Assembly (NCBI GenBank): GCA_037178675.1
Contig: JAYMGJ010000540.1
Coordinates: 27,226-91,225 of the forward strand
DNA length: 64,000 nucleotides
Reading direction: 5' to 3'
Origin: Scleroderma bovista
Taxonomy: Eukaryota > Basidiomycota > Agaricomycetes > Boletales > Sclerodermataceae
Positions 39,671 to 63,467 of this stretch are shown here, one piece after another; within the stretch, counting starts at the first letter, position 1; each line of letters begins with the position of its first letter. Under the pieces are notes generated by a model, which did not search any database, was not told the DNA's origin, and saw only the letters and a program-made list of their open reading frames with translations. The translations under genes were made by a program, and so were the position numbers.

Positions 39671-40669
39671 ATGGCAGACCTTGACCAGGTCCTCTTGCAG
39701 CTTGCCCAAAGACAGGCTGCCCTCCAAGCCCATATCGTGGCCCTTGCAGTTGCACAGCATCACCCTGCACCACTGCCGCGCAAGAAGATGGTCGCGAATC
39801 CCGGGAGTTATGATGGGTCCCCTCAGAAATTCCACGAGTGGTGGTCAAAGATCAAGATCTGGTTTCAGATCTTGATGGAGGGGGCAACTGACGCCCAGGT
39901 CACCACAGCAGTACTCTCTTGGCTCACTGGCCCAAAAGCTGGTCGGTGGGCTCAGGTCTGTCTGGACAGCTGCATGGTGGCAGCACATGCCCTCACCAAC
40001 ACCCTGCCTGTATCAGCAGGCCAACCTGCGCCCCCGCCAGCCTGGCCCACTTGGGATGACTTCTTGGAGGAGATAGAGAGGTTCTTTCTCCCCGGAAATA
40101 ATGCTGAGTGGGCACGTGCCCAACTTCTCCGCCTTTGACAGGGTCCTAGGCAACGCATCAACAATTTCTTGGCACAGTTCGAGGCGCTCAAGAACCAAAG
40201 TGGGTGCGTGGATGAGTACGCCTGTGATCTTCTCGAACGTGCGCTCCAGAGGAAACTATTGGAGCAAATTTATATTCAAAACATGTGTTGAGACACGTAC
40301 GCCCGACTTGCAGCCTTGTCTCGTGAAATGGGGAGAGCCCAAGAACTCTTCCTCATCAATGTTCAGAGTTAGGGATCAGCCCGTTATTACCAGGGCCAAA
40401 ATTATTCGTCTTCGGCCGCATCTGGGAGTGGTACCCCCATGGATGTAGGTGCCATTGAGACAAACCAGCAAAGGGGTAAAGGGCCCCAATGCTATAACTG
40501 CCAGCTGTTTGGCCATATTGCACATGAGTGCACGAAGCTGTGCTGCCCTCGTTGTGGGCAACAACAAGCACGGGCAATGCAAGCCCAGCCGGAGGATGAC
40601 CGGCTGAATGTGGTAAGAGGAATGACATTTGCAGAGATGCGAGCGTTTTTCAAGGATTTAAAAGATTAG
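39671..40669 (+). pseudogene. gag: Chromovirus gag
   Basis: One frame from MADLDQVLLQLAQRQ to KDLKD, with capsid motifs PGSYDGSPQKFHEWWSKI, TGPKAGRWAQ and FFLPGNNAEWARAQLLRL, and a CCHC-type region CYNCQLFGHIAHEC. It carries three in-frame stops: TGA 40136 (the related gag at 63473-64000 has Arg here), TGA 40289 and TAG 40370. Each fits CGA-to-TGA or CAG-to-TAG. Confidence 0.9.
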
Positions 40670-40710
40670 AGAATGAGGACACATCGGGCATCCTCACTCT
40701 CGAGTCTTCT

Positions 40711-41304
40711 TTGGACACTGCTGTACGTATACTGGACTATAGACTTTCTTGTGCTACTACTCCTGCTGTGCAGGAAATATTTAAATACTGCATTGCTTTG
40801 TTATGTACGAAAATAGCGAAAACCCATAAAAAAGTGTCCTCTGTAGTTTCTTCTGTTTCTCCTTCTCGCTTCTCTGTTTTGTCAGTTGATAGCATGGACT
40901 CTGACTTGGACTGTTCTGTACCTTCTAAGGGGGTCCCTGCAAAGGGCTTGGCACTGGAAGTAAAATCAAGTGTGCTTAATTCCCGATTGAATAAAAATAT
41001 TCTTTCTCCTTCTTTGGCATCTAAGAAACCGGAAAGTCCCGCCGGCAACTTGGAAGTTTCTATGGACTTACGAAGGTCCTTCACAATGGAACGTGAAGTG
41101 ATGGTGCCGGTCTGCATCCACGGGCCCCTTAATACTATTAAGGTAGATGCCCTGCTAGACAGTGGTGCTACTGGTTGTTTTGTTGACAAGAGCTGGGCTC
41201 TTGATAGGCGCCTTCAGTTATCTAAGCTGGTAAAGCCCGTCCCTGTTCTTAACATAGATGGCACTAGAAATCAGGAGGGTGATACATGCACTATGTATTG
41301 TTGA
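40711..41304 (+). pseudogene. Chromovirus protease region
   Basis: Ser-rich spacer, then an aspartic protease with an intact ALLDSGATGCFVD active site at about 41149. It lies in a different frame from gag and from pol, so a frameshift is needed near 40670 and another near 41290. Confidence 0.85.
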
Positions 41305-44300
41305 CAGTTGGTATTGGGAAACATGCTGAAAAACTGTGGTGTGCCGTCACGTGCCTTGGAAAAGTACCGCTTATCCTGGGCCACACCTGGCTCCAGAAGC
41401 ATAATCCAAATATAGATTGGGTCACCGTCAGAGTTAATTTAACTCAGTGTCCTCCAGAGTGCAAGTCACTTTTGGAGACACGCTTTGCTAAATTATTACG
41501 AGAAAACAAATCTCAGGAAACTTGGGTACAAGCTTTGAAAGCTCATGAATCAAAGGTCACTATCAATGAGTCGACCCTAGAAGAAGCTCAGAAGCAAGTG
41601 CCTAAAGAGTACTGGGAGTTCTTAGACGTATTTAGTAAAAAGTTGTCAGAGCGCATGCTGCTATGAAAACCTTGGGATCATGGAATTGATCTAAGAGAAG
41701 ATTTCCCACCCAAAAAGGGAAGGCTTATCCCACTCTCTGTTGATGAACAAAAAGAAGTTGAATTGTTCCTTGATGATCAACTTGCTAAAGGATACATTCG
41801 GCCTTCTATTAGTCAGCAGATGTTGCCAGTCTTCTTTATGCCAAAAATGGACAGCAAAAAGTGCATGGTACAGGATTACCGATATGTAAATGACTGGACG
41901 ATTAAAAATAATTATCCACTACCGCTTATCTCTCAGCTTGTTGACAAGCTTAAAGGTTGCAAACTCTTTACAAAGATGGATCTTCGGTGGGGTTACAACG
42001 ATGTGAGGATTCACAAGGGTGATGAATGGAAAGCTGCATTTGTAATGCACAAAGGGGCTTTTGAGCCGTTAGTTATGTATTTCGGTCTCTGCAATTCACT
42101 TGCGACATTCCAGAAAATGATGAATGAGATATTCCACGATATGTTGGATGTCTGCATGGTGTATATTGATGACCTTATGATATTTGCGGATACAGACGAT
42201 CAGGAAAAGCATGATAGAATCGTGCTAGAAGTTTTGAAATGTTTACGTGATAATGATCTCTACATAAAACCTGAGAAGTGTCGCTTCAGAGTCACCGAAG
42301 TCGACTTCCTCGGTATGATCGTTTCATGTGATGGTATTAAAATGGACCCTGAGAAAGTGAATGCTGTTCTGAAGTGGCCTGAGCCAACGAATGTAAAGCA
42401 GGTTCGCGCATTCCTAGGTCTCGGCAACTTCTATAGATGCTTCATTAAAGATTATGTGATCATGGCTAGACCCATGACGGACCTTACGTGTAAGGATACC
42501 ATATTTAACTTCAGAGAAAAGGAACGCACTGTGTTTGAGGCTTTGAAAGCCACCTTTACTCATGCTCCGGTACTTCAGTACCCCAATCAGGACTGCGAAT
42601 TCTGCCTGGAAACAGATGCATCTGAGTTCGCCATCGGGGGAGTGATATCTGTGAAGTGCAAAGACAGCAAATTCAGACCCGTCGCGTACATGTCACACTC
42701 CATGATGCCTCCCGAACGAAACTATCCTATTCACAATAAAGAGATGCTGGCCATCATAAAAGCAACTGAGGCCTGGCGCCATTATCTCAAAGCCACTCCT
42801 TAAACTTTTGAGATATATACGGACCATTATAATTTAATGTACTTTACCAAGTCACAGAATCTCTCTAAGCTCCAAGCACACTGGCAGATGTGGATGACAC
42901 GGTTTAACTACTCATTAATTTATAAAAAGGGAACCCAGATGCACGTAGCAGATCCACTTAGCAGGTGATCGGACCATTACGTCTCAAGTTCTGATGATAA
43001 CAAGGATCAGGTCCTGTTAAACTCGGTATCTATTAAACTAATCGACAACACTGGTCAGTCTTACAAAGAGCAACAGTTGCTCATTATGGACTTTCATGAC
43101 ACTCCTGTTGCTGGGCATAAAGGAGTAAAAGCTACATATAATGCACTCAGGAAGCATTATTCTTGGAAAGGGATGAAAGAACAGATTCAAACCTACATAA
43201 AGCACTGTCAGAAGTGTCAACAGTCCAAGGTGTCAAATCACAAGACTTCTGGAAGTCTTGTTCCTCTCCCTATCCCTAGTGGACCGTGGCTTGACGTCAC
43301 CATGGACTTTACCGAGATGCCAAAATCCCTCGGTTACGATTATATATTAGTCATGGTTGATTGGTTCTCCAAAGAGGTCGTGTTTGTGCCTTATACCAAG
43401 GAGGAAACCACCCTGTCAACCGCTGAGTTATTTAGAGACCATGTCTGGTGTCAGCATGGACTTCTGTCTTCCATTGTCTCCGACTGTGGATCAGCCTTTG
43501 CAAGCAACTTCCTGGGGGAATTGTATAGACTTTTAGGTGTGAAAAGGAAAATGTCTATCGCATTTCACCCTCAGACCGATGGTCAAACGGAGTGGTTGAA
43601 CCGCGAAATTAATCAGTATCTCCGAACCTATGTAAACAATCGACAAGACGACTGGGCCAAGTGGGCCAAGATTGCTCAGTTCGTCTGGAACAACACGGTC
43701 TCAGAAGTTACCACTGATTCCCCATTTGGAATTACCCGGAGTTATTCCCCTTGTATGGGTGTTGAACCAGTAGACACAGTAGTGCCAGTGGCTAAGGACT
43801 TTGCTGCCATATTTAATAAAGTCATTGAGTCTTCTGAGAAGGCAAAACATAATATGAAGCTTCAGGTGGATAAGCATAGAAATCCCGCCCTGGACTATGT
43901 TGTGGGCCAACAAGTGTGGCTCTCTACAGACAACCTTTGTATGTTAAATCGCGCTTCTAAGAAGCTTACAGAAAAATGGATTGGCCCCTATGAGATCACT
44001 CATATAACCCTGAATGCGGTTGAGCTTAAGCTCCCGACAACTCTTCGGATTCACCCGGTTGTGAATGTTTCTCGAGTAAAGCCTTATCTAGGCCCTCTTC
44101 CTGGTCAACCAGTGTCTTGGCCTGGTCCGGTACATGTCTCTGAAGAATGCGATGAAGAGTATGAAGTGGACTATATAGTAGCTTCTTGTATTTATAGAAG
44201 ACAGCTCCAGTATCTGGTACACTGGAAAGGGTACGAAGAACATGAGAGAACCTGGGAACCCTCATCTAATTTGAAGAATTCTCCTCTGGTAGTCGAGCGC

Positions 44301-44434
44301 TTTTACCGAGAGAATCCCTCTGCTCCTCAGAAACTTTGTATGGCCCAGGTGGACTTTGATTTGTTGTTTAGTTGTGTCCCCGAAAACCTTACGGTTTGCA
44401 ACGCTCAGTTCTGCAGTCTGGAATCCTGCACCTG
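41286..44434 (+). pseudogene. pol: Chromovirus pol: RT, RNase H, integrase, chromodomain
   Basis: One frame with stops at 41664, 42801 and 42966. RT: MVQDYRYVNDWTIKNNYPLP, FTKMDLRWGYNDVRI, catalytic YIDD at about 42162. RNase H: LETDASEFAIGGVI, YPIHNKEMLAII. Integrase: zinc finger H..H..C..C (HCQKCQQSK), core D-D-E in VTMDFTEMP, IVSDCGSAFAS (usual Arg after SD is Cys) and QTEWLNREIN (usual Arg is Trp). The chromodomain is DYIVAS...YLVHWKGYEEHERTWEP at about 44165-44270, which in this clade reads histone marks to direct insertion. The C-terminus ends 13 bp before the 3' LTR, spanning the purine tract. Confidence 0.93.
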
Positions 44435-44446
44435 AGGGGGGAGTAG

Positions 44447-47205: not shown

Positions 47206-47655
47206 TGTCATATCCATACTTTTCCCAGTCACAACTCCAGTCTAACCCTGGCCCGCCTGACCTCTCCTTAGGCATAGACGCAACTCCGGATCTAGTCCGG
47301 CCATCTCCAGCCCCATAGCTGCACTCCAGCTCAACTCCGGTCACTATGTCCCTCTCCGCCTCAGGACTAAACCCCTGTCTTCCTACAGACAGATCCGCAG
47401 TCTAACTCCTCCATGTCGGACCTGTACCTACCATTAGTCGCTACTCCAGTTTCAGTCTGGCCACTCCCTTTGTCTGGTCTGCGACCTAGCCCAACTCCGA
47501 CTGGTACATCCAACTCCGGCTCAGGTCTGCTCCTGTTCCGCTCCGCTTCCCCTGATAGGTCCACCAATGGCCTTGGACATTTCCATGTCCAACTCCAGAC
47601 CTTCCTCCGGCTACTCCACCCTTCCTCCACTTGTACACTCCCTCCACATAATGTA
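47206..47655 (+). repeat. Gypsy solo LTR, left piece split by KDZ
   Basis: TGTCATATCC start with TSD CTGAG at 47201-47205, similar to 32897 onward as far as the CACTCCCTCCA motif. Continues at 62941. Confidence 0.92.
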
Positions 47656-47666
47656 CCTACATTGTA

Positions 47667-48400
47667 CCATGCTTTACGGCCAGCGGGGGTTGACAATTGG
47701 CCGTATGTTATGGGCCAGCTGGGGTCAGGCCGGACTAAAGGGTGTTGCCATGATTTATGGTCCGGCCAGTATGCGGAATTGTCACCATAATACATGGTCC
47801 AGCCTGGGGGTGGGTTGTCACCATAATATAGGTTTGGGCCAGGATGTAGGTATCACCATAGTGTATGGTCCGGCCAGAGTGTGTAGTTTAACCATAATAT
47901 ACAGTCCGGCCTGGTTGTAGGTGATACCATAGTGTATGGTCAGGCCAGGGTATGGGTGCATATTGAACAGTCCGGCCTGGGTGTGGGTGTCACCATAGTG
48001 TATGGTCAGGCCAGGGTAGGGGTGTCACCATATTGTACAGTCCAGCCTGGGTGTGGGTGTCACCATAATACACAGTCTGGCCTGGGGGTGGGCATCACCA
48101 TAGTGTATGGTTGGGCCAGGGTAGGGGTGTCATCATAATATACAGTCTGGCCTGGCTGTGGGTGTCACCATAGTGTATGGTCAGGCCAGGGTAGGGGTGT
48201 CACCATATTGTACAGTCCGGCCTGGGTGTGGGCATCACCATAGTGTATGATTGGGCCAGGGTAGGTGAGTCACCATAGTGTATGGTCAGGCCAGGGTAGG
48301 GGTGTCACCATATTGTACAGTCCGGCCTGGGTGTGGGCATCACCATAGTGTATGGTTGGGCCGGGTAGGTGTGTTACCATAATGGATAGTCCGGCAGGCA
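47667..48400 (+). repeat. KDZ left terminal inverted repeat
   Basis: Starts near CCATGCTTTACGGCCAGCGG. It then alternates two related ~35 bp units, GGTGTCACCATATTGTACAG and GGCATCACCATAGTGTATGG, each followed by a CCGGCC/GGGCC motif. It is collinear with the reverse complement of 62205-62924 over the outer ~400 bp, including one-off features such as the short GTGCATATTGAACAG unit. Confidence 0.92.
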
Positions 48401-48597
48401 TCCGGCCGGCAACTTTACACCATCGATATCTAGTAAGACCCAGGGTGAGTTATGTTGAAAGAAAGGTGTACTATGCTGGCAGTCAATCACCCTGAGACCT
48501 GTGGGATTCTAGGAATACAATGCCCATGGGCAGGGGTACATTCGGAACACACTTCCGGCTTCTGGCAACTAGTTAAGATATACCGGTCGCAGTTCCC
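48401..48597. promoter_or_regulatory. Putative 5' region of the TET/JBP gene
   Basis: About 200 bp between the terminal repeat and the ATG at 48598. No TATA box is obvious. Transcription may start within the terminal repeat (inference). Confidence 0.35.
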
Positions 48598-49945
48598 ATG
48601 GCTTTCAGCACAAATCAGTCATTGACTGCTTCATTGCATCCTCCGTACAGACACATCCAATATTGCCAGATGGCCACATTCAACACGGGTGTCACTGACT
48701 ATCACCTATCTGAAAGGATTACTGGCTACATGCACCGGCGATTTCGCCATCTGGCACTAGATCCCGATTTTCCCTGGTCTGCACTTCCATTGGATATTCC
48801 ATCCCATGGTTGCATCGAAATGAACCAATTGGTTTCTGTTCTTGTTAAGGCATACAAAAATCGCAGTAAGTTCATTGCATGGCTCTAACATACCATCTGA
48901 CTTTCCATCTCAGTTCCATCTGGCATTGATCTCATACGACTTAGTGAGAGCCTGTCCGCAATGGAGTCCGGAGCTGACATGAAACGAGAGGCTCAGCTCC
49001 TAGAGAACCACCCACCGGCGATCAGGAGCACCAGTAACATGCCTGCTATGTTATCAGAACCAGCAATCATCCTTGGGGAAGGAGATAGCATCGCTTTGTG
49101 GTACCTTCCAGGTGCCTTAGCTAGGCCAATTCAGGTATGGTGGTCAATATTATGCATGCCTTGTCTGACATGTAGGTAAAGAAACATATTGTTACAGTCC
49201 TTCAGCCTCTTGGTGACAACCTCCGGAAGAGTATCAAAAACCAGAGTTGGAGAAACTCTGATCAATACTTCCAACCGGGAAGTACACCATCCGGATGTCT
49301 GGAGTTTTCACCAGCTAGGCATTTGCAAGGCCACTCGGTAGAGTTATATCTTTCTTCAGAAACAAACATAATTAACCTCGGGTACAGACAAGGAAACACA
49401 CACCATCGGTTTCTGCAGGGCTTGCAACACCGGCAGGCAAGGAATGGGGAAAGAATATTTGCCTCCCATCTGCCCTCCTTTCTGGTGTGCTATCTATAAT
49501 GCACCCTCCACTCTATCATGCCGGTCTAGAGGCAAGGCAGAGGCTGGATGCATGGTCTATAGAGAACGATCCTGTGATGCAGGAAGCACTGGGGCATTGG
49601 TCGACCGTATACACAAATCTCTCACTCATTTCCAATCGGAAAACACCTTTGCACCGAGATCCCCAGTCCCGGTCTGATTGGTTTGATCTACTCACCACTG
49701 TCGGTGAATATCAAGATTGCTTCCTTAATATCCCAACCCTTGGAGTTCAGCTGGAATATAGCCCGGGCACAGTTGTAGCATTTTCTGGTAGGCTCCTCAG
49801 GCATGGAGTGATCGAGGAGGGTGGAGACCGATGTTGCCTCACATACTACATGCAGGATAACATTCATAATTGGCTTGGAGTCCCCAGGCCAGATCCAATG
49901 AGGCTTCACAAGGTCCAGGATGTGTTGTTGCAGTTGGAGGTGTAG
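48598..49945 (+). CDS. TET/JBP-family 2OG-Fe(II) dioxygenase, apparently intact
   Basis: Four exons splice with GT-AG introns into 402 codons: 48598-48865, 48914-49134, 49176-49337 and 49388-49945. The lengths sum to 1209, divisible by three, and junction phases agree. The N-terminal region has SHGCIEMNQLVSVLVKAYKN and PAIILGEGDSIALWYLPGAL. The C-terminal double-stranded beta-helix carries LLSGVLSIMHPPLYHAG, the metal-binding H-R-D in TPLHRDPQSRSDW, PTLGVQLEYSPGTVVAF, the distal His in GRLLRHG and the 2OG-binding Arg candidate in GDRCCLTYYMQDNIH. TET/JBP enzymes oxidise 5-methylcytosine or thymine in DNA; fungal members act on 5mC. It is 13 codons from the next feature class, has no stop in frame, and its counterpart in the older relic is frameshifted. 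Confidence 0.88.
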
Positions 49946-50029
49946 ATTACCTTAATTGGCCATGACTGGTAGTCCAATACATGTTTCTGGCAGGATATGC
50001 TTTATCCATGTAGAACAATATGCTACTGG

Positions 50030-50620
50030 TATGACTGTTACCGGTCAGTATGCACTGGTATGACACACCGGTTGATATGCTCCCAGTATGACAGTGACCA
50101 GTCGGTATGCTACCGGTATGATAGTGACCGGTCGGTATGCTACAGATATGACACTGACCGGTCGGTATGCTACCGGTATGACAGTGACCGGTCAGTATGC
50201 TACCAGTATGAAGGCCACCGGTATGACAGTCACCACTTGACTTGCTACGGGCTGAGTATAATACCAGTATGACCATTGGCGGTCAGTATGCCCATATAGA
50301 ACAGTATCTTCGCAGGTCAAAACACAATACTAGGATGATACTGATACACCACATAGTGGTCAGTATGCTACCGGTATGACTGTTACCGGTCGGCATAATA
50401 GCAGTACCTTCAGTACTGGCCAGTATAACACCAGTATGACCAACACCAGTTTGTATGCTACCAGTGGGACAGTTACCAGTCAGTATAATAGTTGTATGCC
50501 CATTGCCAGTTGATATGCTACCGCTATACCTATTATCCAGTGTAATACCGGGATGACCATCACTGGTCACTACATCACTGGTCTGGTCTCTGTCTTCAAA
50601 TACAATCCTGACAGGCTTAT
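50030..50620. repeat. 30 bp minisatellite, internal block
   Basis: Units like ACCGGTCGGTATGCTACC + GGTATGACAGTG, in the same orientation as the block at 61050-62045. It lies in the 3' flank of the TET/JBP gene. Rich in ACCGGT palindromes and CpG. Confidence 0.9.
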
Positions 50621-50840
50621 ATTGCAAGCATCATGATTGCTGGTGTGTACATGATTATTACCAGTCAATACCCCACATTTATTACCGGTGACCATTGCTC
50701 TGTGTCTTGTATGTGCCCTACCGGCCACCCATTCAACCGGCCTAAGGCAGGACTGCATCATGAATGTCACATGGACCATGAGAAATATCATTATCCTATT
50801 AAAGGCTTATATTTACCCAGGACCTCACTTGCCCGCAATC

Positions 50841-51611
50841 ATGTCTAACACCCTTGATGCCCACAATATCTCCCTCACTTTGCAATACATCGGGGTTCGG
50901 TTCCGACGGTTTACCTATGTGCTACAGCAACCCAACCCACCTTCAAATTGGTTTGAGAATGTCATGATAGAAATTGTAAGATCACCTGATTCTTATGGAA
51001 ATCAATTCATATATTATACATTTAGCATGTTCTTGAGCGATTGCTCTCTGCATGCAGTGCCTATGGTCTGATCATGCAGGTGCCTTATATCGCAAACCAA
51101 TTCCTGTGGTGTGCCACTCTGGCAAAGATGCAGCAGGAGGAGATACTGGAATACATGAAGGGTCATGATGTATTCATGATCAGGACATCCGAGTCACAGA
51201 TTCATCATACCGGACTGATGCTACACAAATGGTGGGAGATGCCCGGTACCACATTCCTTGATGGATATGAATCCCAGCAAATCCCGCACATCATTTTGGA
51301 GGCCAAAGACTTTTCCCTACTGTCTCGGTATGTATATTCCCTTGCCACCACATCCTGCCTTACATGATCAGCAGGATGGGACCGAGTCCTTACCACTCCT
51401 CTTTGATGTCCCAAGAATGCCAAGGGACAGCATCAAATACATGATGAGTGGGTGTGATCTCATGCTGCATGAAATAGAGAAAGAGATGGGAAATGTACAT
51501 ATGGTGATGCAGGCTTCAGAGCAGCGGCTGAGTTTATTTGACAGTGTTCCCCATGTAAAAGAGCAATTGGGTAAGACATGGGAACGGTTTGTGACAGATG
51601 AAAAGAAGTAG
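50841..51611 (+). CDS. Unidentified KDZ cargo gene
   Basis: Starts MSNTLDAHNISLTLQYIG. A clear intron at 50976-51025 leads to HVLERLLSACSAYGLIMQVP, then a block ending AKDFSLLSR. A second intron begins near 51328. The last exon includes MPRDSIKYMMSGCDLMLHEI and ends at 51611. With the acceptor at 51371 the frame does not close; an acceptor after CCCAAG near 51420 does, so the exact join is unsure. About 225 residues, mostly helical by composition, no known domain seen. It stands tail to tail with the transposase (31 bp apart), and a relic homologue accompanies the relic TET/JBP gene at 26550. Confidence 0.65.
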
Positions 51612-51642
51612 ATATGTTTTACAACCTACAACAATGTAGTGT

Positions 51643-54600
51643 TTAAATGGAATAGAGCCGGTGATATATCTGACGTTGCCAGGCAGCATAACAGGCAATC
51701 CCAATCTCATCAGATCTCAATGCTGTTTGCTGGCGGTCTGACCAGAAATGCAACCTACTTTGGAAATAATTTCTGGTCCACTCCGCCTCACATTGTAGCA
51801 TCTCCACTTCCTCCTTCCACCGGTCCCTAAGTGCCTTGGACTGGAACCAATGAACCTGGTAAACTAGATTTCCGGTTAAGTACTGAAAGCATTTTGTGAT
51901 GATGCTAAGACATACATTCAGACATCCAATCATTCCTATCAGTATCTCGGGGTACATCCATGGTCCAGAACCAAGGGAGGGTATCATCCCTGTGGCCCCG
52001 AGCATTGGGGTCCGATATTGCAGTGGTGACCGAAAGGTCGGAGGCATGCAATTCCTGGTACCGGTCTAGAACCTGTCTATCGGCATGGAGAGCTACCATC
52101 TGCCTGCGGCACCGGTGATATAATGAGGCATGGCACTGTAGGGTGAGATCTGTGCTCGCTATCCGGCCCCATGCCCGGGTGGTCATATTATAATTACCAG
52201 CTTGTCTAACATCTCGCCTAAAGATGACAGCCTTGTCAGCCAGTGCCAGTCTAATTTCATGAAGGCAATCATTGGCTTGCCCCTGTCTCAAGGATAGCTC
52301 CTGTTCCACAAGGAATCCAAGTCCTAATCCCTGGAGACGGTCTATTCCAATATATGATGGCAGCGGTGGCAACATTGTTTCGGCATTTCCCTGTGTTGGC
52401 AAGACGAATGGATTTTCTATTTCCTCACCATCTGCTTGGTTGTCCTGAAATTGTAGGGCAGTGTCCAGTTCTACATCATCATCCCAGTCTTCACCCAGAA
52501 ACTGTGTGGCTGATGCAACTAATCCCTCTAACTGGGATTGTAGCTGGTCTCGGCGCCGTGCAATTGATAGCTGTTGTATTTCAGTTCCGGATGTGTTGAG
52601 CTGCTGAGCATCAATGGCTAGCATTATCTGTGCTCCTTCAACCTTCAATGCCTTAGCTATCCATGTGGTTGATCCCTGAAGCCGGTCTTGTTGTTGGTTG
52701 ATAAGGTTCATTTCTATCAATTTCATTGTTGGTGCTTCAGGCCATATTCAGTAAGGTTAACTCCATTTTAAAACAACATACCCTTCTCCAGCTGAACATC
52801 ATATATATCCATTGCACGGGGATCCATCATCCGGTCATTCAATGCCTTCGCCTCCTGCTCCAACCACAATTGCCGGAGACCTTCCGGGACTTGGTTATTC
52901 AGTTTTTCAAAAGCTTCTGTAACCTCTGTCAACGAGCACTGGGCACCCCTCATTTTTCTCCTTAGAAACAATGCTTGTACACGTCAGCCAGCAGGGTCAT
53001 GGTGAAGGGCATTGTTATACTCACGCATCCAGACCATCTTGACAAAATTGTGGTCATTCATTTGGAAATCGAGTAACTCTTGGCGATGCGGTGTTGCCAT
53101 CCCCCTTGCAGATGGAGATATTATATTCAGTGAAGACCACAGTGTCTCCATGATCTCCCCATCCACTCTGCCGGCACCAGGAATAAAATTCGGGGCATAT
53201 CTGGCAAAGCATTCTGTTTTATGCCCATGTACATGCCAAATACCGATCCCAGGCAAAATGCACAGTCCATCTGGTAGAGTGATGAATTTGTTGGACTGAA
53301 TCCGCCGAGCCAAATTTCTACTATACTGGCAATTGATGTCATAAAATGTTATCACTTGTTGGTCGGGATTCAATGCATGCCGGACTGCATGCACCAGAGC
53401 ATAGTCCATGTTTACCTGCCTGTAACCAGCTCAACAAACTCGAGATGACAATGATGAGAACCTACTGTTCTCCCTTCTGAAAGTCAACCATTGCATGGGG
53501 GATGAAACATCCATGTCTTACACATGCACATCCCCCAATCCCAGTGGATGGCAGCTGTTTCCTTGCCGAATTTGCCTGATTAACTGCCCAATGATTGCTA
53601 CACTCTGATCGCTTTTCAAAGGATGAGATATAGCACTTCCAGTGGTGCATTCCCTCACCTCTATCTGATTTGCTGTGCCTGCCAAGTACTCCTTGTAGTT
53701 ACCTGAGCCTACCATGAACCCCCTCCCATCCATCAGCCACACCTCATCTGCAGGGTTCCTCGGTCTCATGTGCTCCGCCTTGAAATTTCCATCCATCACT
53801 ATCAACCTCAAAAATTTCCAGCTACAAAGAAAAATGAATCTCCCCATCCCAGTGGAGCTTAAACACATTACATACTGGGACAAATCCACATCAGTATCAT
53901 CAAGGTTCACTCCGGGCTGTGGACATGCTGGACAAAACAGCACAAGGTCGCCTGTCGATGAACCAATTTCACTATCATCAACTCCCTTCCATTTCATTAA
54001 TTTTAGCACCCTCCACATCCTGGATACTCTAAGTAGCTCCCTGTATCTGTCCTATTACTGAGGTAAGACACATGTAATGTGTTTCCGGTCCACTCACTGG
54101 CACAAGGTGTGGAAAGGCATTGGATGTAATCCTGTGGAGTTTGCTGTAATAGTTCATGGCAGAGGTTCCACATTCCACATTATCCTGGATGAAGTCATCC
54201 AATACCTGAAAGGTAAAGACAGTCCTTGGTTCCTTAGTGGTGGCAGGAAAGAGGCCGGCCATCATCAGCTGAAGGTGTGAATTTGGTGACCCCTGACAGT
54301 TGCAGTACATCACATCGCAGAATTGTACTCCTGAAGTGTGCACCACAGTCAAAAAGGTTCTGCTGTTTGGTACTTTGAGATGGGGAGGTGAGCCTGAATC
54401 CACAGATTCCTCATGGTCCTGTGCTCCTTCCTCTAGATCATCGGAGAAATCTAATTCTGCATGACCACCACTCGAACAAGGATCCCCACCATGTCCAAGG
54501 TGCAGCACCAACCCCGCCTACAACATCAGACATTGTTATTGAGTCAGAATGAAAGCACTCACAAGCCGGAGAGAGGAGTCTTCAAAGAAGGCCGAATTCC

Positions 54601-55138
54601 ATTGTTGAACCTGGTGGAAGGGCCGGAGCTTATGCTGGTTCCTGCAACAGGCTGTGCAGAACACCGGCCGGTGCGCACAATCTATGCATCTGTAGCTGCC
54701 ATCCCCACCACACAATATGCAAATCCGTGGACAGGGGGGAGCTTCCATGGCAAGAATGATTGAGAGATATCTCTGTTTATGGGGCAGCCATGCCCAGAGA
54801 TAGCTGTTCTAAAAGCGATGTCCATGAGATACAGGGTAATATATTGTGGAATAATACTCTACCTGATTTTTGGTGGTTTTAAATTGTTTCAAAGGAGGTG
54901 GATCGTCTAGCTCCTGGTAAGCATCTTCATCACCATTTTGAAACACATTGTGTTCTGCCATGATGGATGAGCAAGCCACAGTAGGAGATGCCTTAGATTG
55001 CATAGCCTGTTGACCCTTTCTTCTGAGAGTGACCTTTTGAAACTTATCAATTGATCCTCTAGTTGTTTTCACAGTCTTCCACACCACATGGGTCACAGAC
55101 GTAGAAGAGGTCACTCCAGATATCCTCGACTTCCCCAT
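51643..55138 (-). CDS. KDZ transposase with CxC cysteine cluster
   Basis: Starts MGKSRISGVTSS at 55138. Introns checked by frame: after KTTKNQ (54862-54814 region), after SLRL, after HLVP, after DLS, after NQIE (GTGAGG...AAAAG, near 53660-53615), after KGE, and after QLEKG. Spliced blocks: NSYLWAWLPHKQRYL; the CxC cluster C..C....RC..C.....C..C..NQH and PFHQVQQW; TVVHTSGVQFCDVMYCNC; PATTKEPRTVFTFQVLD. The catalytic DDE-type core has VMDGNFKAEH (Asp at 53791-53793), GGCACVRHGCFIPHAMVDFQ, TFYDINCQYS (Asp at 53338-53340) and RVDGEIMETLWSSLN (Glu at about 53158). The C-terminus has VYQVHWFQSKALRDRW. This is the full KDZ layout. An apparent frameshift at 53615 disappears once the intron is recognised, so the gene may be functional. 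Confidence 0.88.
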
Positions 55139-55473
55139 GATTGATAGGCTTGGTGCAAACTTCAGTAGGAAATGCCTCATTGCAACATCATGGATCACAA
55201 TCATTGCATCCGGATCTGTGTATCTTGTCTGAGATTGGTACCGATTGGCATCAGGAACATTAGGTACACTGCCTATATATAGTAGGTGATCTGCCGATTT
55301 GTGACATTGGCTACTTCTTATGGTTAGTGATCCACTGCACCGGAACCATAGCTAACCTCAAAAGGAAATTGTTCGGATTGAAGGAACTTTACATGACAGC
55401 TGAGGGAATTTCATTCAACATGGTGCACGCTATGATATGGAGGGCTTCACCAACAAAGTCTACCACATTCACA
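55139..55473. promoter_or_regulatory. Bidirectional promoter region of the KDZ element
   Basis: 335 bp between the divergent starts of the transposase (-) and the WFYN gene (+). A symmetric TATATATA lies at about 55274-55281 and could serve either side. Co-regulation is inference. Confidence 0.5.
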
Positions 55474-57108
55474 ATGACTTCAAGCAACTCAGACTCCCAT
55501 TCATCTTCTGAATCATCTCATCCTACAGAACCAGAGGATCCCACGACCACTGGACTGGTAGGGGAGAATACTCCAGGGAAACTCACCTCCGAGGAAATAG
55601 AGATTCTTCATGCAAACCTCAAAGAGTGGAAGGCTTTAAAGGGGGACAGAAGGAAGCCTGTGAATAGGAGGGTCCGTGATCTCATTAGACACCTGCCTGC
55701 AAATGAGTACATCTTGGGAGAGGACTGGATAGCTAAGTTGGGTGTAGGTGATGTTGTATTCCGCTCTGCAAAGGCTAACATTTTATAGCACATCAAAAGC
55801 TGGTTTTATAACCATGGCTGGTCCCGAGCACGCAAGGGGATGCTGAAGTGGGGGCAAAATTGGACTGCACGGAGGGTAATAAGGGAGCAGAAGCGAATGG
55901 AGATTCAGCAAGAATTCCAACAGCGCAGTATCGGGGTTGGCAGCAAGGAAATGATAGGAGGGTACCAGAAGACCGTTGGAAGGCTGATGAAAAAGGTTAC
56001 TGAGGATGAAATGAAAGAGGCAGAGCGGGCTGCTCAGGAGTGGAACGAGGTCCAACCACCGCCGGAGGTACAGGCTATGTATGTACACATTTCTAATCTT
56101 TTGTATGATACACCTCACAGGTCTTCAGTGCAGCTGAGAAAAAAGGCCAGAAGTATACTCATGAGTATGCAGAGACTATGTGGAAGCAGTGTGGTACCCG
56201 GGTGGTGGTGATGGTGGCTTGGAAGGATCAGAACGGAAAGGTGATGGCCAGCATGTAAGTGGAAACATGGCAGTTACACATTGAGATGACCGGAACAATT
56301 ACAGACATGATTTCAATGATGAACTTGGGAATGTGAGTACATTTCCGGACTGGGAAGGAATGGAGGAAAAATGGTCGAGGTATGCTTCTGATGTATTCAA
56401 GGCCGGCGAGATTCTGGATGGAGACCAGGCAGATGATGAGGATGAGGATGCAGATCAACATCCTCGAAAGATTGTCAAGAAGGGTAAGAAAAAGGCACAA
56501 GTAAGCCTCCAAACCCTTGATAGCGGGATTCCGCAACTTCCGAACATCCTTGACATGCATGTGCCGGAGAAACAGGACATCATCTGGGCATTCGTGACCT
56601 GTCACTACCATAAGTTACTTGGATTTAGGTGAGGGGTAACTAACTAAGGCACAATAGGTCGTGCTTGTGGAAAGGAAAGAGCAACTGTACCATGGATGAG
56701 CATTGCAGAAGACCTGCAAGGTTATATTGAAAGCAAGTACCTCCCTTCTGATGTCTCGTTGAAGGAACCTAGCAAAATGGGTGGTGTGCAAGTGACTCAG
56801 ATCCTGGAATTCTGGAGGAGGAGACAACAAATCGATCCACAAGATGTATTTAGGTTCATGGCCTGGAAGGATGCCGAGGGAGCATTACAAAGGTCGGTTG
56901 GTGAAGATGAGCACCAGTCAGACAAGGCCCTTGGAAAGAGAAGGAGACAAGGTGAGTGAATTTCTCTGAATTGTGGAGTCTCTTGGGGGGTTCTGAACCT
57001 AGTGTGAAGCTTTCATCGGCACTTTGCTCATCGACCGACATGGCATCCTCATCCTCCTCCACTGTGGTGAGTGAACTGGGGCATGAACTTCCACCGGGTG
57101 AAGGTTGA
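55474..57108 (+). CDS. WFYN-motif basidiomycete protein, KDZ cargo
   Basis: Starts MTSSNSDSHSSS, Ser/Thr-rich. Introns at 55744-55788, 56068-56120 and 56255-56304 keep frame. Blocks: EEIEILHANLKEWKALKGDR, HIKSWFYNHGWSRARKGM, NWTARRVIREQKRME, GSKEMIGGYQKTVGRLM, PPPE, EKKGQKYTHEYAETMWKQCG, RVVVMVAWKDQNGKVMAS, TFPDWEGMEEKWSRYA, RATVPWMSIAEDLQGYIESK and an Arg/Lys-rich stretch KRRRQ. A last small exon at about 56996-57108 ends LPPGEG. The junction near 56630-56658 does not close in my reading, so one splice site or base is uncertain. The family is common in agaricomycetes as I recall it, without known biochemical role. A nuclear, DNA- or chromatin-associated role is a guess. Confidence 0.7.
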
Positions 57109-57681
57109 ACGACTACAATAGTTTGTCACATATCAATGGGAAATTATTGGGACTTACAGTGCTTCACCTGTCTTGTTGACGAGAACCTTACACATTTTGT
57201 TGAATGTTCGGTATCCATCAATGGAATTGTGTTTTGTGAGAGTAGAACAAATAGGATGCGAACAACCGGGTCAAGGGCAAGAACACCAAGGTGTATTATA
57301 TAATCAATATGATCACCAGTGCAGTTTGGGTACCAACAGCCAAGCAAGGACCGGTCACCGGTTCCACCACATCGTCATGTGTGAATTATGTTAATCACTA
57401 TTATTCATGAGGTACATATGATTACCGGCGACTAATTGAATTCACCGGTGTGTTTGTGGCACTGAAGCAACTGGTTATTGATTTTACATGTGTTCCATTT
57501 ATCTTGTTTTTTGTCTGCATATCATAATTTGTATTGGACCATTGTGGACAATACATGTGAATATGTTATGTAATCATTTTCAACAATATATAGTGGCCAT
57601 ACCGGCATATTTCCCTTGCCTTTCCTCCACCACATTCACTCCCATCGAATCCCATCGCATTCAACTGCAAAACCTTTATCC
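57109..57681. other. Intergenic region inside the KDZ element
   Basis: 573 bp with no recognised coding exon. Contains several ACCGGT motifs like those of the minisatellite. Holds the promoter of the following gene. Confidence 0.45.
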
Positions 57682-60600
57682 ATGTCATCACAAGCCAAAG
57701 CCTTAACCTTCTCCATCGGCACCGGTGAGGACCATGCAAAGGCGATTGTTACCCAGGCAGCCAAGGTCATACGGCAATATACCGACGGTCTCAAATATAA
57801 TAGCACTATGGAATACTGGAAGGAAACCACACAGGTTGTGTGGGATAGGCTGGTGAGTTATTAGTACATAGTTTGATATCTGTACCCATCAATCCCACAG
57901 AAAGAGGTCACTGCTGTTGTAGATCAGTTGCCAGCTGGCTTTGCAATCCCGATCCATGTCATTGCGGCCGATGCCTTCATGGTGAGCCCCAACTCACTTC
58001 TTGAGGTGAAGAAATGGCCACCTTGGGAGCGCATCTGTCGGGCAAAGGACAAAGACGTCGAGGATCACCCATGGTACAATCTCTGGGAGCCCGCCCTGCC
58101 AGTTCCTCCTGCACCAACAACAACACCGGTAACACAGGTGAAAGGAAAGGAGAAGGAGAGGAATGAAGACATGGATAATGGGAAATTAGGTGAGCACACC
58201 ACATTTATAATCCCAATTGATTTCTGTTCTGAAGAGCCAAGGTGCAGGAACCGAGGAGAGTGGTGGAGAGTTGGCAGGACACCGGTCCCGATCCCAGCCG
58301 GCCGGTCCATCTAAGAAAGGGAAGGAGAAGGCAAAGGTAGTGGAAGATCCACAAGGTCACATAAACCAGGGGATGTCTGGTAAGCAATATGACTGTTGGA
58401 TTGACACAAAGGTGTTTTCTGATAAAGGTAATGTGCAGACAAGCAGGATGGTGGTGGCCTGGTGGTAAGACACCGGTCTCGGTCCCAAGTGACCACGCAG
58501 TCAAAGAAGGGGAAGGAGAAGGAAGTGCAAATGCAAGTGGAAGTGGAGGGAGAGTCACAGAGCATGATCACTGGGGGGAAATTGGGTAAGTGAGGTGCCA
58601 TTGATACAATGGAGTCAGGCACTGATCAACTCGGAATGTAGACAACGAACAGGCCGGTGGAGAGCAGGCCAGAGGACGGTCTCTTTCCCGACAAGCCAGT
58701 GCATCAAATTGGAATCAGAGTAAATCCCGAGGATGCACGCCGCATATTAAGTCTGCACCTACCATTGACAGCGAGGAAGATCCTGATATGCCACTGGTCA
58801 ACCCCACTCAACCAAAAGCATCATTCCTTGTGCCGGTAGGATTTGGCCCTGTTCCACCAGAGGATCGGTGCGATCAATGTCGGAAGGGTGACAAAATGTG
58901 CTTGGTAAAGCCAGGTTGGGCTTGCTTAAACTGCAACAAGGTAAAGATGAAGTGCAGTTTGACTGACAGGCTTCGTGCCCGATCTCGGGCCCCATCTGAG
59001 GCAGCCATGACCACAACCTGGCGACATCGCTCCCCTTCCAGGGTTCCATCTGAGGCAGCCCCGACCACAACCCGGCAACGTCAGTCCCCTTCCAGGGTTC
59101 AATCGGAGATTGCCCCTGATTTCACCCCACGGCCAGCAAAGCAACAACGGTCGTCCAGCATCCACCCTACTCCTGGACCATCGAAGGCCAAGGCAGGACA
59201 GGTTGAAAGGTCCTCAGGCAAAGGTGAGTATCATCCATGCTTTGTATCCTTGCATTCAAATTGCTGAACAGGTTTTGAAGTTTATATTCAAACACCTTCA
59301 TTGTTGCCAAAATCAAAGTCCCGTGATACCAGTGTTGCCTCAACCTGTCACTGCAAGCATTTCTCAATGTTTCATGACAAAACATTGTAAAAAAAATAGA
59401 AGAAAGAGATACTCTTTTATTCACAATTTTGTTACACAAAAAAGACAAGAATCATACAAAATCTTTTTTGTCTTTCTTTTGCCAAGACATGATTTGAGAT
59501 CATTTCTTATGTTAGGACTATAAAAAATTTAACATTTTTCTTCGCCTGTTCCTTGCAAAACAAATAAAGAAAAGACAATGTAACTTTTCTCATAGCAAGT
59601 ATTTCAGTATGTTTTATTAGAAATAAAGCATCATATTATTGTTGAAAACATGTTAAGAGAAAACAATAAATTTTTCTTCAAGAAACATGATTGGTCCTGG
59701 ATACTGATTGGCTGGTTAGAGTGTTATAACCAAAAATATATAGCACATTTTCTAAACATTTATTCTTGTGGAAAAGAGTATCTTTTGATTCAAATTTTCA
59801 CTGCAGGAAATTGAAAATGTCTACTGTGAGAAAAGTTACATTGTCTTTTCTTTGTTTGTTTTGCAAGAAACAGGCAGAAGAAAAATGTTAAATTTTTTAT
59901 AGTGCTAACATAAGAAATGATCTCAAATCATGTCTTTGCAAAAGAAAGACAAAAAAGATTCTGTATGATATTTGTCTTTTTTGTGTAATAAAATTGTAAA
60001 TAAAAGAGTATCTCTTTCTTCTATTTTTTTACAATGTTTTGTCATGAAACATTGAGAAATGCTTGCAGTGTGTGCAGCATCTGCCACTGACCCTCCGACG
60101 ACCCCATCTGCTGTTGCGACATCCGGCATGACCAAGGGTGAGCAGTTGCAGGATGTGGAGGAGGAGGTCTTCCTTCTCAAGAAGGATATTGCGAGGATGA
60201 AGGAGGATACCGAGGAGAACATTGTCCTTCTGAAGAGAGATAATGCAAGGATGAGGGTGGAGTTGGAGCAGAACCGGGAGGAGCTGGAGACACTCCGGGC
60301 ACTTGTGGAAGCTATGCGCGAAGACTGGTTCCCCACTGCTCCTGCACTCCGTGACCCTGCAGTACCTTCTCAGGTCGAATGTCCTCCACCTGGTATGCAT
60401 GGATCTCTGCCTTCTGAACATTCTCAATGTCCCAACATTTCCCCATCCATCTGGGCATTGTTAGATCTACCTGCAGGTTTGTGCTTTTGTTTTCCGATCT
60501 CTTGAATTCATGTTTTGAATGGTGCAGGTGACACTCCAGGTCCCAGTGCTGGTACCGACCACCAGGTATCTGCAATTCTGGCCTGTGTCCCTCTGGAGAC

Positions 60601-60805
60601 CTCGGACATGGATATTTCAACAGCCTCCACCGACAGACCGTCACAGGTGGACCTGACACCTGCTATTACCATGGGGATTCAGCCATCCCCCATCATTACC
60701 ATCAGTCCCCCTGCACCAGAACCTCAAGATGTTGGTACTCCAGCATCAGAGCAACCAGATGTTGCAATGGGTGAAGGAGGCGGGGACTCCTCACATAAGG
60801 ACTAA
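57682..60805 (+). CDS. Zn2Cys6 and coiled-coil protein, KDZ cargo
   Basis: Start MSSQAKALTFSIGTGEDHAK at 57682; first intron 57853-57900 is clean. Blocks: YTDGLKYNSTMEYWKETTQV, AFMVSPNSLLEVKKWPPWER, three diverged low-complexity exons with HRSRSQ and KKGKEK motifs, then C-x2-C-x6-C-x7-C-x2-C-x6-C at about 58872-58960, the exact spacing of a fungal Zn(II)2Cys6 cluster. A Ser/Arg-rich region with three PSRVxSE repeats follows. A ~840 bp intron (from GTGAGT at about 59223) contains a foldback element. Beyond it a coiled coil (EEEVFLLKKDIARMKEDTEE, about 60150-60310) and a Pro/Ser-rich tail end at 60805. Likely a nuclear DNA-binding protein. No stop interrupts the exons I could trace. Confidence 0.7.
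59349..60070. mobile_element. 722 bp foldback MITE-like element in an intron
   Basis: Starts CACTGCAAGCATTTCTCAATG and ends with its reverse complement. The arms of ~245 bp are nearly identical (59349-59600 and 59828-60070) around a ~230 bp AT-rich loop. TGT lies on both sides (59346-59348, 60071-60073), a possible 3 bp target duplication. Much more AT-rich than the surrounding KDZ genes. No coding capacity, so it is non-autonomous. Confidence 0.9.
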
Positions 60806-61049
60806 TTTTGTTTCATTGCCACAAACTTTGTATTTGTAGTACAATTAGTATCCTTTGTTTGTGTAAGAATATATTCCTGTGCATGGCTATGATTAAATGT
60901 GTAAGTGATCTACTTGTATGCTTAGCACCGGTCAGTCAGGCCAATGGCCCATTTCTTTACTTATAATTATTGTTGTACCATTGCCAATATTATCATGTGA
61001 TGAATTACTAGTTCGTATTTGTCACCCAACATTGGATACTACTGGATGA
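60806..61049. other. 3' flank of the Zn2Cys6 gene
   Basis: AT-rich, with no gene. Merges into the minisatellite. Confidence 0.4.
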
Positions 61050-62045
61050 TGAATCCCGGTCAGCACACTACTGGCATAATCATGACCGGTCAGTGCACAC
61101 CAAGTATGATCTTCCCATGGTGGTTTGCTTAACATAGTATACTAACAATGTACTCATGCCTTTGATTAGCTTGAGTGGGCTTGTCTTATAGCACAGCCGG
61201 TATGATTATGACCGGTATGTACACCGGTGTATTCATGACCGGCAAGTGCAATACTAGCATGTCCATCATCTGCCAGTACTCGGTCTGTTGTTACAATATA
61301 GTTTTGATATCGTTATTACTTGTCAGTGCTGTCCTTGTGAAAGTATCACCGGGCAGCATTCTGCCAGCATGGTGTTGTTTACCACCAAACAAAACAATAC
61401 CGGTATCCATATCATCAGCCGGTACCAAACTACTGGTCGGTCGGTATGCTACCGGTATGACAGTGACCGGTTGGTATGCCACTGGTATGTACCGGTATGA
61501 TAGTGACCGGTTGGTATGCTACTGATATGACACTGACCGGTCGGTATGCTACTGGTATGATAGTGACCGGTTGGTATGCCACCGGTATGCTACCGGTATG
61601 ATAGTGACCGGTTGGTATGCCACCGGTATGCTACCGGTATGACAGTTACCGGTCAGTATGCTACAGTGATCGGTTGGTATGCCACCGGTATGCCATCAGT
61701 ATGATAGTGACCGGTTGGTATGCCACCCGTTATGCTACCGGTATGACAGTTACCGGTCAGTATGCTACTGGTATGATCGGTCAGTATGCCACCGGTATGA
61801 CAGTTACCAGTCAGTATGCTACTGGTATGATCGGTCAGTATGCCACCGGTATGCCACCGGTATGACAGTTACCGGTCAGTATGCTACCGGTATGATAGTG
61901 ACTGGTTGGTATGCTACCGGTATGACAGTTACCGGTCAGTATGCTACTGGTATGATAGTGACCGGTTGGTATGCCGCCGATATGACACTGACCGGTTGGT
62001 ATGCTACCGGTATGACACTGACCGGTTGGTATGACCAATTAATCA
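61050..62045. repeat. 30 bp minisatellite, right block
   Basis: About 25-30 units of the ACCGGTTGGTATGCCACC + GGTATGACAGTG type, with first units degenerate. Same orientation as the block at 50030-50620. Translates into repeated DRSVCYRYDS-like decapeptides, which I regard as artefact. Confidence 0.9.
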
Positions 62046-62204
62046 TTACTGGCCAGTACACCACCTGAATGCTTATCATTAACTTGTACTACTTGTATAA
62101 TCATTTCCATTCAGTACAGTACCAGTCGTGTCTTTGCTAATACGTACAATCCTGACATGGCTATCATCAGCCTGGACTTGTTTCAAATATTTTTTCCTCT
62201 CTGG

Positions 62205-62924
62205 CCCGACCATACACTTATTGTGACACCCACACCCAGGCCAGACTATCCATTATGGTGACACACCTACCCGGCCCGACCATACACTATGGTGATGCCC
62301 ACACCCAGGCCGGACTGTACAATATGATGACACACCTATCCTGGCCCGACCATACACTATGGTGACTCACCTACCCTGGCCCAATCATACACTATGGCGA
62401 TGCCCACACCCAGGCCGGACTGTACAATATGGTGACACCCCTACCCTGGCCTGACCATCAATTCCCACACCCAGGCCGGACTGTACAATATGATGACACA
62501 CCTATCCTGGCCCGACCATACACTATGGTGACACCCACACCCAGGCTGGACTGTACAATATGGTGACACACCTACCCTGGCCCGACCATACACTATGGTG
62601 ACACCCACACCCAGGCCGGACTGTTCAATATGTACCCATACCCTGGCCTGACCATACACTATGGTGACACCCACACCCAGGCCGCACTGTATATTATGGT
62701 TAAATTACACACCCTGGCCAGACCATACACTATGGTGATACCTGCATCCTGGCCCAACCTCATATTATGGTGACAACCCACCCCCAGGCTGGACCATGTA
62801 TTATGGTGACAATTCCACACACAGGCCGGATCATATATCATGGCAACACCCTGTAGTCCGGCCTGACCCCTGCTGGCCCATAACATATGGCCGATTGTCA
62901 ACCCCCGCTGGCCATAAAACACGG
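62205..62924 (-). repeat. KDZ right terminal inverted repeat
   Basis: Inverted copy of 47667-48400, ending near CCGCTGGCCATAAAACACGG. Differences from the left copy are largely C/T and G/A. Confidence 0.92.
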
Positions 62925-62940
62925 CCTAACCAGGTACATG

Positions 62941-63467
62941 GGCTCTATACTCACCCTAGTTCTCATTTACTATATAAACTACTATACTCCAGCTTAGTAG
63001 TTTCCTTAGATCAAATCTCGACTAAGATACTCCCCACTCTGTACTACCCACCATGCTCTCCTAATCCCATCTTGTTCTCCTGAACTCCGGCCAACTCCGG
63101 CCTCCGTCCTATCTCGTCCCCTTGGTCCTATGTCTGATCCTAGCAAGTCTCCTACTTGCACGAGGGCAGAAGCCACCTCTGTCCCAGACTTGACGCTAGA
63201 CCTCTCAGGACTTATCCCACCTCTGGGATGTACTTCACTCCGGACAAGCTGCGCTCAACTCCGGACCACTTTCCCGCGGTCCGGACTTACTCCGCAAAAA
63301 CCCGGACTTACTCCCTGTGCTTCTCTAGTGCCCGGACTTCGTTCGTTTGACCCGGACTTGACTCTCCGCACTAACTAGCACCTACTAGTGTCTGGACTTA
63401 CCTCCTCATTAGTTCCCTGCACCTCTGGACCTCCTAGTAAGATCGTCGAGGAGAACCGGTCTTGACA
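62941..63467 (+). repeat. Gypsy solo LTR, right piece
   Basis: Resumes the 1253 bp LTR family at TATACTCACC (matching about 33625) and ends CCGGTCTTGACA. The second TSD copy CTGAG lies at 63468-63472. About 280 bp of the reference LTR is absent between the two pieces. Confidence 0.92.

Follow-up and report, generated by a model that had tools for sequence, protein, structure and literature searches.

We analysed a 64,000-nt stretch of the Scleroderma bovista genome (Boletales; contig JAYMGJ010000540.1, positions 27,226 to 91,225; hereafter the window), in which a DNA transposon with long inverted ends encloses five genes: a TET/JBP dioxygenase gene, gene A, a KDZ transposase gene on the opposite strand, gene B and gene C (Table 1). 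Comparison with other copies in the same genome leads us to regard it as very probably an eroded member of a Kyakuja-type KDZ transposon family whose full unit measures about 20 kb. A preliminary description, made from the window alone, had presented it as a self-contained and complete 15.3-kb unit.

Results

Ends and other copies of the element

The outer inverted arms of the window copy (47667-48127 and 62464-62924) span 461 nt and are 89% complementary, and a second pair lies further in (48177-48395 and 62240-62458; 219 nt, 96% complementary). A sequence search of the assembly (51.8 Mb in 850 contigs) with the arms as query matched 83 stretches across the genome. These other copies place the ends of the window copy at 47645 and 62945: the first 12 bases of the left end, 5'-CACATAATGTAC, are identical in 10 of 10 copies, the window included (two of them, C127 and C783, have a common flank and may be non-independent), and the right end reads ...CATGGGCT[C/T] in 12 other elements that have both ends on one contig. 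With up to two mismatches allowed, the end patterns matched 59 left and 81 right places, and reversed controls matched none. The long, collinear inverted repeats of the preliminary description are real, and the further copies with shared ends that it proposed to seek by BLASTN were found; the boundaries it gave, 47667 and 62924, lie 22 and 21 bp too far inward.

Exact 7-bp target duplications flank 8 of the 12 other end pairs: six of the eight with the left end of the window family or its one-base GAACC variant (the latter in C92, C93 and C468), and two of the four of a sister type with a TAGATT left end (C324, C441, C700 and C645). Shared ends in many copies, together with these duplications, bear out the earlier view of a mobile module that brings its own TET gene.

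Three further features of the ends were seen. The sister family combines the left end CACATAATGTACCTAGATTG with the right end CGGCCTACCAAGGTACATGGGC in C324, C441, C700 and C645; a right-end variant, CGGCCTACCCAGGTGCATGGGC, occurs at 43 of the 81 listed right-end places; and the left flanks of L010 (C127) and L028 (C783) are almost alike, possibly as alleles of a dikaryon or as insertions into one repeat.

The TET/JBP and KDZ genes

Spliced by hand, the TET gene of the window encodes 402 residues without a stop, keeps the HRD...RHGV...R residues and matches Pfam PF12851 above the cut-off (E 7.3e-17). Its nearest solved relative is CcTET (7vpn/8jkk; E 1.3e-33), to which residues 77-162 (19.7 bits) and 186-390 (97.8 bits) align, the HRD and Asp337-type residues included. 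The features of AG-type TET/JBP proteins are all present, i.e. HxD rather than HxE, the distal His and Arg, and an equivalent of Asp337 (HRDPQSRSDWFD...RHGV...GDR); the position equivalent to Gly331 of CcTET is occupied by Ser. Residue numbering follows Kojima 2025 (PMC12730594).

The KDZ transposase matches PF18758 (E 2.1e-36) and, through its CxC2 cysteine cluster, PF18803 (E 1.7e-23), both above cut-off, in a model that still carried a frame fault near 53466-53658. The first automatic exon chain was dropped for its wrong frame at that place, and the corrected model runs through its 1061 codons with no premature stop. Compared with the majority of the other copies, the window protein shows 29 residue differences, 14 of them from R to Q, W, H or C; R478W falls in an NHRAVN stretch that is kept in four of six other copies. 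Among the seven copies in which KDZ was compared, the window copy alone has TET and KDZ frames that are both uninterrupted. A TET/JBP and a KDZ gene between the ends, both open after splicing, had been claimed before, and the profile matches and frames agree with that claim.

Genes A, B and C

Three further genes do lie inside the ends, as the preliminary description had it; they are not all intact, gene B being truncated and gene A one base short. The difference in gene A is in a T run at 51310/51311, with four T in the window and five in 7 of 7 other copies, and it could be an assembly error. A structure model of gene A (mean predicted local distance difference test, pLDDT, 53.8) and one of gene B (pLDDT 48.5) are too weak for fold assignment. 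Eight of 14 gene B homologues match the GTF2I-like repeat PF02946 weakly (best E 1.1e-4); the first member scored reached 17.6 against a cut-off of 27, and gene B of the window itself gave E 0.07. A structural search with gene B returned weak GTF2I and homeodomain matches, none of them at E ≤0.001.

Zn2Cys6 clusters follow the spacing CX2CX6CX5-12CX2CX6-8C, and the cysteine cluster of gene C fits this rule. One gene C homologue (P0020) bears the UniRef name 'Zn(2)-C6 fungal-type', and Pfam Zn_clus gave no match to the gene C protein. The products of genes B and C may bind the arrays at the ends of the element. The named database relatives of the three genes belong to Scleroderma and Pisolithus (13 of 14 matches named for B, three of five for A and three of four for C).

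The gene set recurs in diverged families

The combination of TET, gene A, KDZ and gene B is found again in diverged families of this genome, some of which have gene C as well. The genome holds 166 KDZ matches, 150 of which are listed, and 159 TET/JBP candidates, of which 150 were scored and 149 exceeded the Pfam cut-off; the TET count may include fragments, and also alleles if the assembly is of a dikaryon. Because exon rows were merged by hand for genes A, B and C (158 to 105 places, 128 to 81 and 141 to 35, respectively) and only 150 of the 166 KDZ matches are listed, the linkage counts that follow are lower bounds. At least 74 of 150 TET places have a listed KDZ match within 6 kb, for which uniform placement predicts about 3.4%; at least 86 of 105 gene A places lie within 6 kb of a TET match; at least 57 of 81 gene B places have a listed KDZ within 6 kb, and gene B keeps the same side and strand relative to KDZ in 57 of 57 such pairs; and, out of 150 listed KDZ places, a minimum of 34 have TET, A and B. 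Gene C occurs less often (35 places, at least 15 of them within 6 kb of gene B).

With KDZ drawn leftward (84 cases), TET lies to the left on the plus strand in 40, to the left on the minus strand in 37 and to the right in seven. The window family has the arrangement TET+ A+ KDZ- B+ C+; a second is TET- A+ KDZ- B+ (e.g. C441, C324, C700 and C288, the first three with C+), and a third is A- TET+ KDZ- B+ (e.g. C72, C120, C157 and C250). The differing TET orientations indicate that the TET gene or the TET-A pair was inverted inside an otherwise stable frame. That KDZ and gene B stay constant between families with a flipped TET or TET-A pair suggests cassette inversion inside the element.

Between families, the TET gene shows nonsynonymous divergence (dN) of 0.10-0.38 and synonymous divergence (dS) from 1.18 to saturated, with TET of the other families read by position at nine of ten loci; among families, then, selection has maintained the protein. 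For copies of the one family, the ratio of nonsynonymous to synonymous polymorphism (pN/pS) is 0.32-0.73 in three pairs, which has a near-neutral look; stops interrupt TET in four of eight family copies, and in C274 the gene is split by an insertion resembling a long terminal repeat (LTR) element.

A complete unit and a damaged window copy

The copy in C560, with both ends and a 7-bp duplication, is structurally complete at 20,262 bp. Its inverted arms are 91% identical across 1,861 alignment columns and form terminal inverted repeats (TIRs) of about 1.85 kb, each made up of some 30 units of 35 bp and then a 30-bp repeat in some 17 units; ACCGGT occurs 24 times in the left inner part and 22 times in the right one.

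Measured against such copies, the element in the window is a remnant of about 15.3 kb of a roughly 20-kb element, parts of which have been lost: it is without the inner left array, without about 2.4 kb that included the end of gene B, and without a counterpart of C560 element positions 16001-17330 (~1.3 kb). At the site of the 2.4-kb loss, C54 has about 1.2 kb, along with other losses. The alternative that the 2.4 kb is an insertion in the other copies was rejected, as its first part encodes the gene B tail; that tail aligns with a homologue from Pisolithus tinctorius (40% identity over 45 residues; E 4.6e-7, uncorrected for composition), which supports an ancestral origin of the segment. Within the missing segment, 0.4-0.6 kb of C560 element 12321-12944 is 79-87% identical to repeats at window 27795-28150 and 31033-31646.

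The window copy has also gained a 722-bp insertion, the ends of which are perfect over 40 bases (CACTGCAAGC...GCTTGCAGTG, CACTG..CAGTG), with inverted arms of 154 nt (95%) lying inside them and a duplication of 3 bp, TGT; it is not present at this place in C54, C122, C340 or C560. From its ends and duplication length, it looks like a CACTA/EnSpm-type miniature inverted-repeat transposable element (MITE). The window copy thus does not combine whole genes, two whole ends and a flanking duplication as an intact copy would, and the idea of a complete, self-contained unit does not hold for it.

CpG content and decay

The ratio of observed to expected CpG (o/e) in the window copy is lowest in the outer arms (0.26 and 0.34), reaches 0.37-0.46 in the genes and rises to 0.85 at 61440-62190, which holds the right inner array; in C560 it is 0.25-0.26 in the outer arrays and 0.62-0.71 in the inner arrays. 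The CpG-dense part is the inner 30-bp array, of which the window copy has lost the left one; the ends, which had been called CpG-rich, are CpG-poor in their outer parts.

Pooled over eight copies, and relative to the column majority, CpG has changed to TpG or CpA at 496 of 3751 positions (13.2%); other cytosines have changed at 0.2-0.5% (CA 34/9986, CC 43/8244, CT 16/7272; 93/25,502 in total). Changes of the CpG kind make up 76 of the 123 in the window copy. Within this TET-bearing family, the CpG transition rate divided by the rate of other transitions comes to 25.8-48.2 (21 of 21 pairs); the same ratio is 28.8 in a KDZ pair, L043/L044, whose contigs show no TET match. For that pair the ratio was 17.2 with poorly aligned ends included, and the notion that TET-bearing copies decay more than TET-less ones was dropped when leaving these ends out raised it to 28.8. 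A control LTR-like repeat gave 12.9 (21 copies, 210 pairs) at higher background divergence, a value that may be partly saturated. Pairs of other TET-bearing families, taken along their TET loci, gave 14.2, 25.8, 33.8, 34.0, 38.6, 42.5, 54.4, 153.6 and 164.5, many of them from very few changes and one pair being without other transitions (860-base self-repeat matches, 4.3-5.2, were excluded). L043 and the LTR-like repeat have CpG o/e values of 0.88 and 0.75, above the TET-bearing family.

Heavy CpG decay in TET-bearing copies means that carriers enjoy no lasting protection. The suggestion that the TET protein relieves methylation of its element is not supported; relief may occur in the short term, and over evolutionary time CpG has decayed heavily to TpG and CpA, about as in the one TET-less pair. 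The effect of TET cannot be isolated here, because the protein would act in trans and only one TET-less KDZ pair is at hand.

Neighbouring sequence

Just upstream of the element, window 40600-44435 holds Ty3/Gypsy-like frames (reverse transcriptase, integrase and a chromodomain-like end), and 5035-10778 holds Ty1/Copia-like pieces, with a zinc-knuckle gag and integrase on the plus strand and reverse transcriptase on the minus strand, all named by eye. Positions 1-40000 are strongly depleted of CpG (o/e 0.19), which fits long-standing CpG methylation of repeats.

Table 1. Features of the transposon copy in the window and of its surroundings, with the target duplications of other copies (TRF, Tandem Repeats Finder).
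Feature	Position	Strand	Details
Left flank	47206..47644		Dispersed repeat that, judged by eye, probably belongs to an LTR retrotransposon
Kyakuja-like KDZ transposon, window copy	47645..62945		15,301 bp; 5'-CACATAATGTACC ... GGTACATGGGCTC-3'
Left outer array	47756..48395		35-bp units x 18; part of terminal inverted repeat; TRF, inverted-repeat search
Junction of inner-left-array loss	48395..48396		0.7-1.6 kb here in 9/9 other copies compared (BLAST)
TET/JBP gene	48598..49945	+	4 exons: 48598-48865, 48914-49134, 49176-49337, 49388-49945
Internal 30-bp ACCGGT-bearing repeat block	50019..50211		TRF
Gene A	50841..51611	+	Predicted helical (low confidence); TET partner genome-wide
KDZ transposase with CxC2 cysteine cluster	51643..55213	-	9 exons, 1061 open codons; hand-corrected model
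Gene B	55474..56983	+	Weak GTF2I-like repeat; truncated at its 3' end by the 2.4-kb deletion
Deletion point	56983..56984		~2.4-2.5 kb here in C560, C122, C127, C340
Gene C	57690..60476	+	Limits approximate (rough model); Zn2Cys6-type, coiled-coil-like stretch
Gene C cysteine cluster	58869..58955	+	CX2CX6CX7CX2CX6C; from open reading frame, spacing counted by hand
MITE-like insertion	59349..60070		722 bp; likely within a gene C intron
Right inner array	61484..62033		30-bp ACCGGT units; TRF
Right outer array	62201..62811		35-bp units x 18; inverted repeats, TRF
Right flank	62946..63467		Dispersed repeat, the same one as the left flank
7-bp duplications			C395 AGGTAGT, C324 GCAAGTG, C700 ATCCTAC, C560 GTCGGTG
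7-bp duplications			C340 GCTCATC, C92 TGTCTGC, C93 GCAATAC, C468 GCAACCC

Discussion

In a full element of this family, TIRs consisting of an outer 35-bp and an inner 30-bp ACCGGT array surround the genes for TET, A, KDZ, B and C. Our comparison of copies suggests how it might work: the transposase would carry out DDE-type strand transfer and insert the element with a 7-bp stagger; DNA-binding proteins of the element (the CxC2 cluster of the transposase, the Zn2Cys6 protein C and possibly B) would recognise the end arrays; and TET would oxidise nuclear 5-methylcytosine (5mC) as CcTET does. TET would act in trans and briefly, for expression or transposition, rather than provide permanent protection of resident copies.

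Several observations weigh against this picture. Duplications are missing at four of the 12 other end pairs (C122, C453, C441 and C645) and at the window copy itself (CTCCCTC vs. TATACTC). None of the copies read has all its genes whole; that in C560 has two stops in TET and two in gene B under the window exon model. The assignment to Kyakuja follows from the length of the duplications, the type of TET and the order of the host rather than from a tree of transposases. Kyakuja-1_LB and Kyakuja-2_LB of Laccaria have CA..TG ends without TIRs (Kojima 2025; PMC12730594), unlike the window family with its TIRs of about 1.85 kb made of two tandem arrays; at the tips, the 5' CACATAATG fits this pattern and the 3' ...GGGCTC does not. 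We do not take this pattern as valid for all Kyakuja, because CA..TG ends without TIRs are stated for the two Laccaria families only.

The missing duplication at the window copy bears on how this copy came to lie where it does. Both flanks belong to one dispersed repeat; in two other copies of this repeat (C24 and C274) the stretches matching the flanks lie about 265-430 bp further apart, a tandem array making up some of the difference. The lack of a duplication together with this missing target DNA means that no single clean insertion accounts for the window copy. The best fit, and the most likely course of events, is recombination between two neighbouring insertions, or a deletion at one end beside the element. 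The first of these, in which the window element is a hybrid with left and right ends from two insertions into one repeat some 0.3-0.4 kb apart, is a serious candidate that in our view falls a little short of probable. It accounts for the unlike flanking heptamers and the missing target DNA, and the four other end pairs without a duplication are in keeping with it; however, a deletion starting exactly at one end, as after an aborted transposition, would look alike, as would a target repeat that was shorter beforehand combined with mutated duplications, and the missing length itself varies between the two reference copies owing to the tandem array.

As to the role of TET, it may be a passenger or a general trans-acting de-silencer, captured once, retained since any one copy boosts the expression of all elements, and of no benefit to its own carrier. 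CpG decay that is equal in the TET-bearing family and in the TET-less KDZ pair speaks for this possibility, and so do the near-neutral changes and frequent stops within the family; purifying selection between families and the tight linkage of gene A to TET (at least 86 of 105 places) point instead to selection on the TET-bearing unit, and we regard a passenger TET as possible, though doubtful.

The dioxygenase might conceivably have some purpose apart from removing 5mC, for example oxidation of N6-methyladenine (6mA) or the placing of stable marks of the 5-hydroxymethylcytosine (5hmC) type on the element. The Asp337 equivalent and the Ser at the Gly331 position would suit this purpose, being a pattern that Kojima 2025 (PMC12730594) ties to the 5mC and 6mA activity of CcTET. 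The CpG-specific decay, however, fits cytosine methylation of the copies and has no bearing on adenine, and we judge such a purpose unlikely.

The five genes could further be read as a self-targeting kit for anti-silencing and transposition: protein C, with B, would bind the CGG- and ACCGGT-rich inner arrays and bring TET, with its partner A, and the transposase there; CpG oxidation in the inner arrays would then license the ends for transposition, the body being left to methylation and decay. The inner arrays are indeed closest to the expected CpG content (o/e 0.62-0.85, vs. 0.25-0.46 for outer arms and genes), and we nevertheless hold this licensing scheme to be decidedly improbable; if it is true, the CpG-dense inner arrays are the place to look for oxidised bases. 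Very improbable is that mis-assembly joined arms, arrays and gene set. An assembly of 850 contigs from a genome rich in repeats and long tandem arrays, and the one-base T-run difference in gene A, would lend themselves to such an artefact. It is largely refuted for the family, as contigs whose flanks differ show the tips, the arrays, the order of the genes and the 7-bp duplications again (the shared flank of C127 and C783 possibly leaving two of the ten left ends non-independent).

An eroded copy of a Kyakuja-type family remains the reading we prefer, and the value of the family lies in what it allows to be compared: one family with defined ends and recurring partner genes, sister families with a flipped TET or TET-A pair and TET-less KDZ controls together form a test case for TET function. 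Whatever TET does, resident copies are not spared decay of the kind caused by cytosine methylation.

Comparison with known systems

The KDZ class is reportedly owed to Iyer et al. in 2014, whose abstract is said to mention additional proteins, including one with a divergent HMG domain. Complete TET-bearing transposons have since been presented from 11 lineages, with TET-bearing Kyakuja in five orders including Boletales and with 7-bp duplications (Kojima 2025; PMC12730594), so that a complete unit with both ends defined is not the rarity it was first taken for. The window family resembles Kyakuja in pairing KDZ with an AG-type TET/JBP gene, in its occurrence in Agaricomycetes including Boletales, in its 7-bp duplications and in its 5'-CA start. 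The function of transposon TET/JBP proteins is described there as lacking experimental validation, with escape from silencing as the usual guess.

Likeness extends to KDZ1-KDZ3 of Cryptococcus (PMC12810828), elements of about 9-11 kb that have been seen to move and that share a KDZ transposase with a CxC cluster and terminal inverted repeats; these differ in having TIRs of 139-241 bp, CxC1 rather than CxC2, no TET gene named in the available part of the paper, and duplications of 8 bp (KDZ1) or 4-8 bp (KDZ2 and KDZ3). For the TET protein, CcTET of Coprinopsis cinerea (PDB 7vpn, 7w5p, 8jkk) is the nearest solved relative. The 149 TET matches above cut-off exceed the 47-74 TET genes quoted for Laccaria and Coprinopsis (PMC8889193). 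C to T hypermutation with a CpG bias has been reported for repeats of Agaricomycetes (PMC4014442, PMC6980582), and for genes too in the former; here it was measured within elements that carry TET, alongside others from this genome that do not.

A limited literature search, which did not cover the founding papers, found no report of the set TET-A-KDZ-B-C, and the set of three partner genes that recurs in the window family is not described for Kyakuja in the available part of PMC12730594; the figures or supplement of that paper may already include long-TIR families from Boletales. TET-bearing Kyakuja as a kind are already published, and the present family stands out by its unusual long ends built from arrays together with a well-supported set of partner genes.

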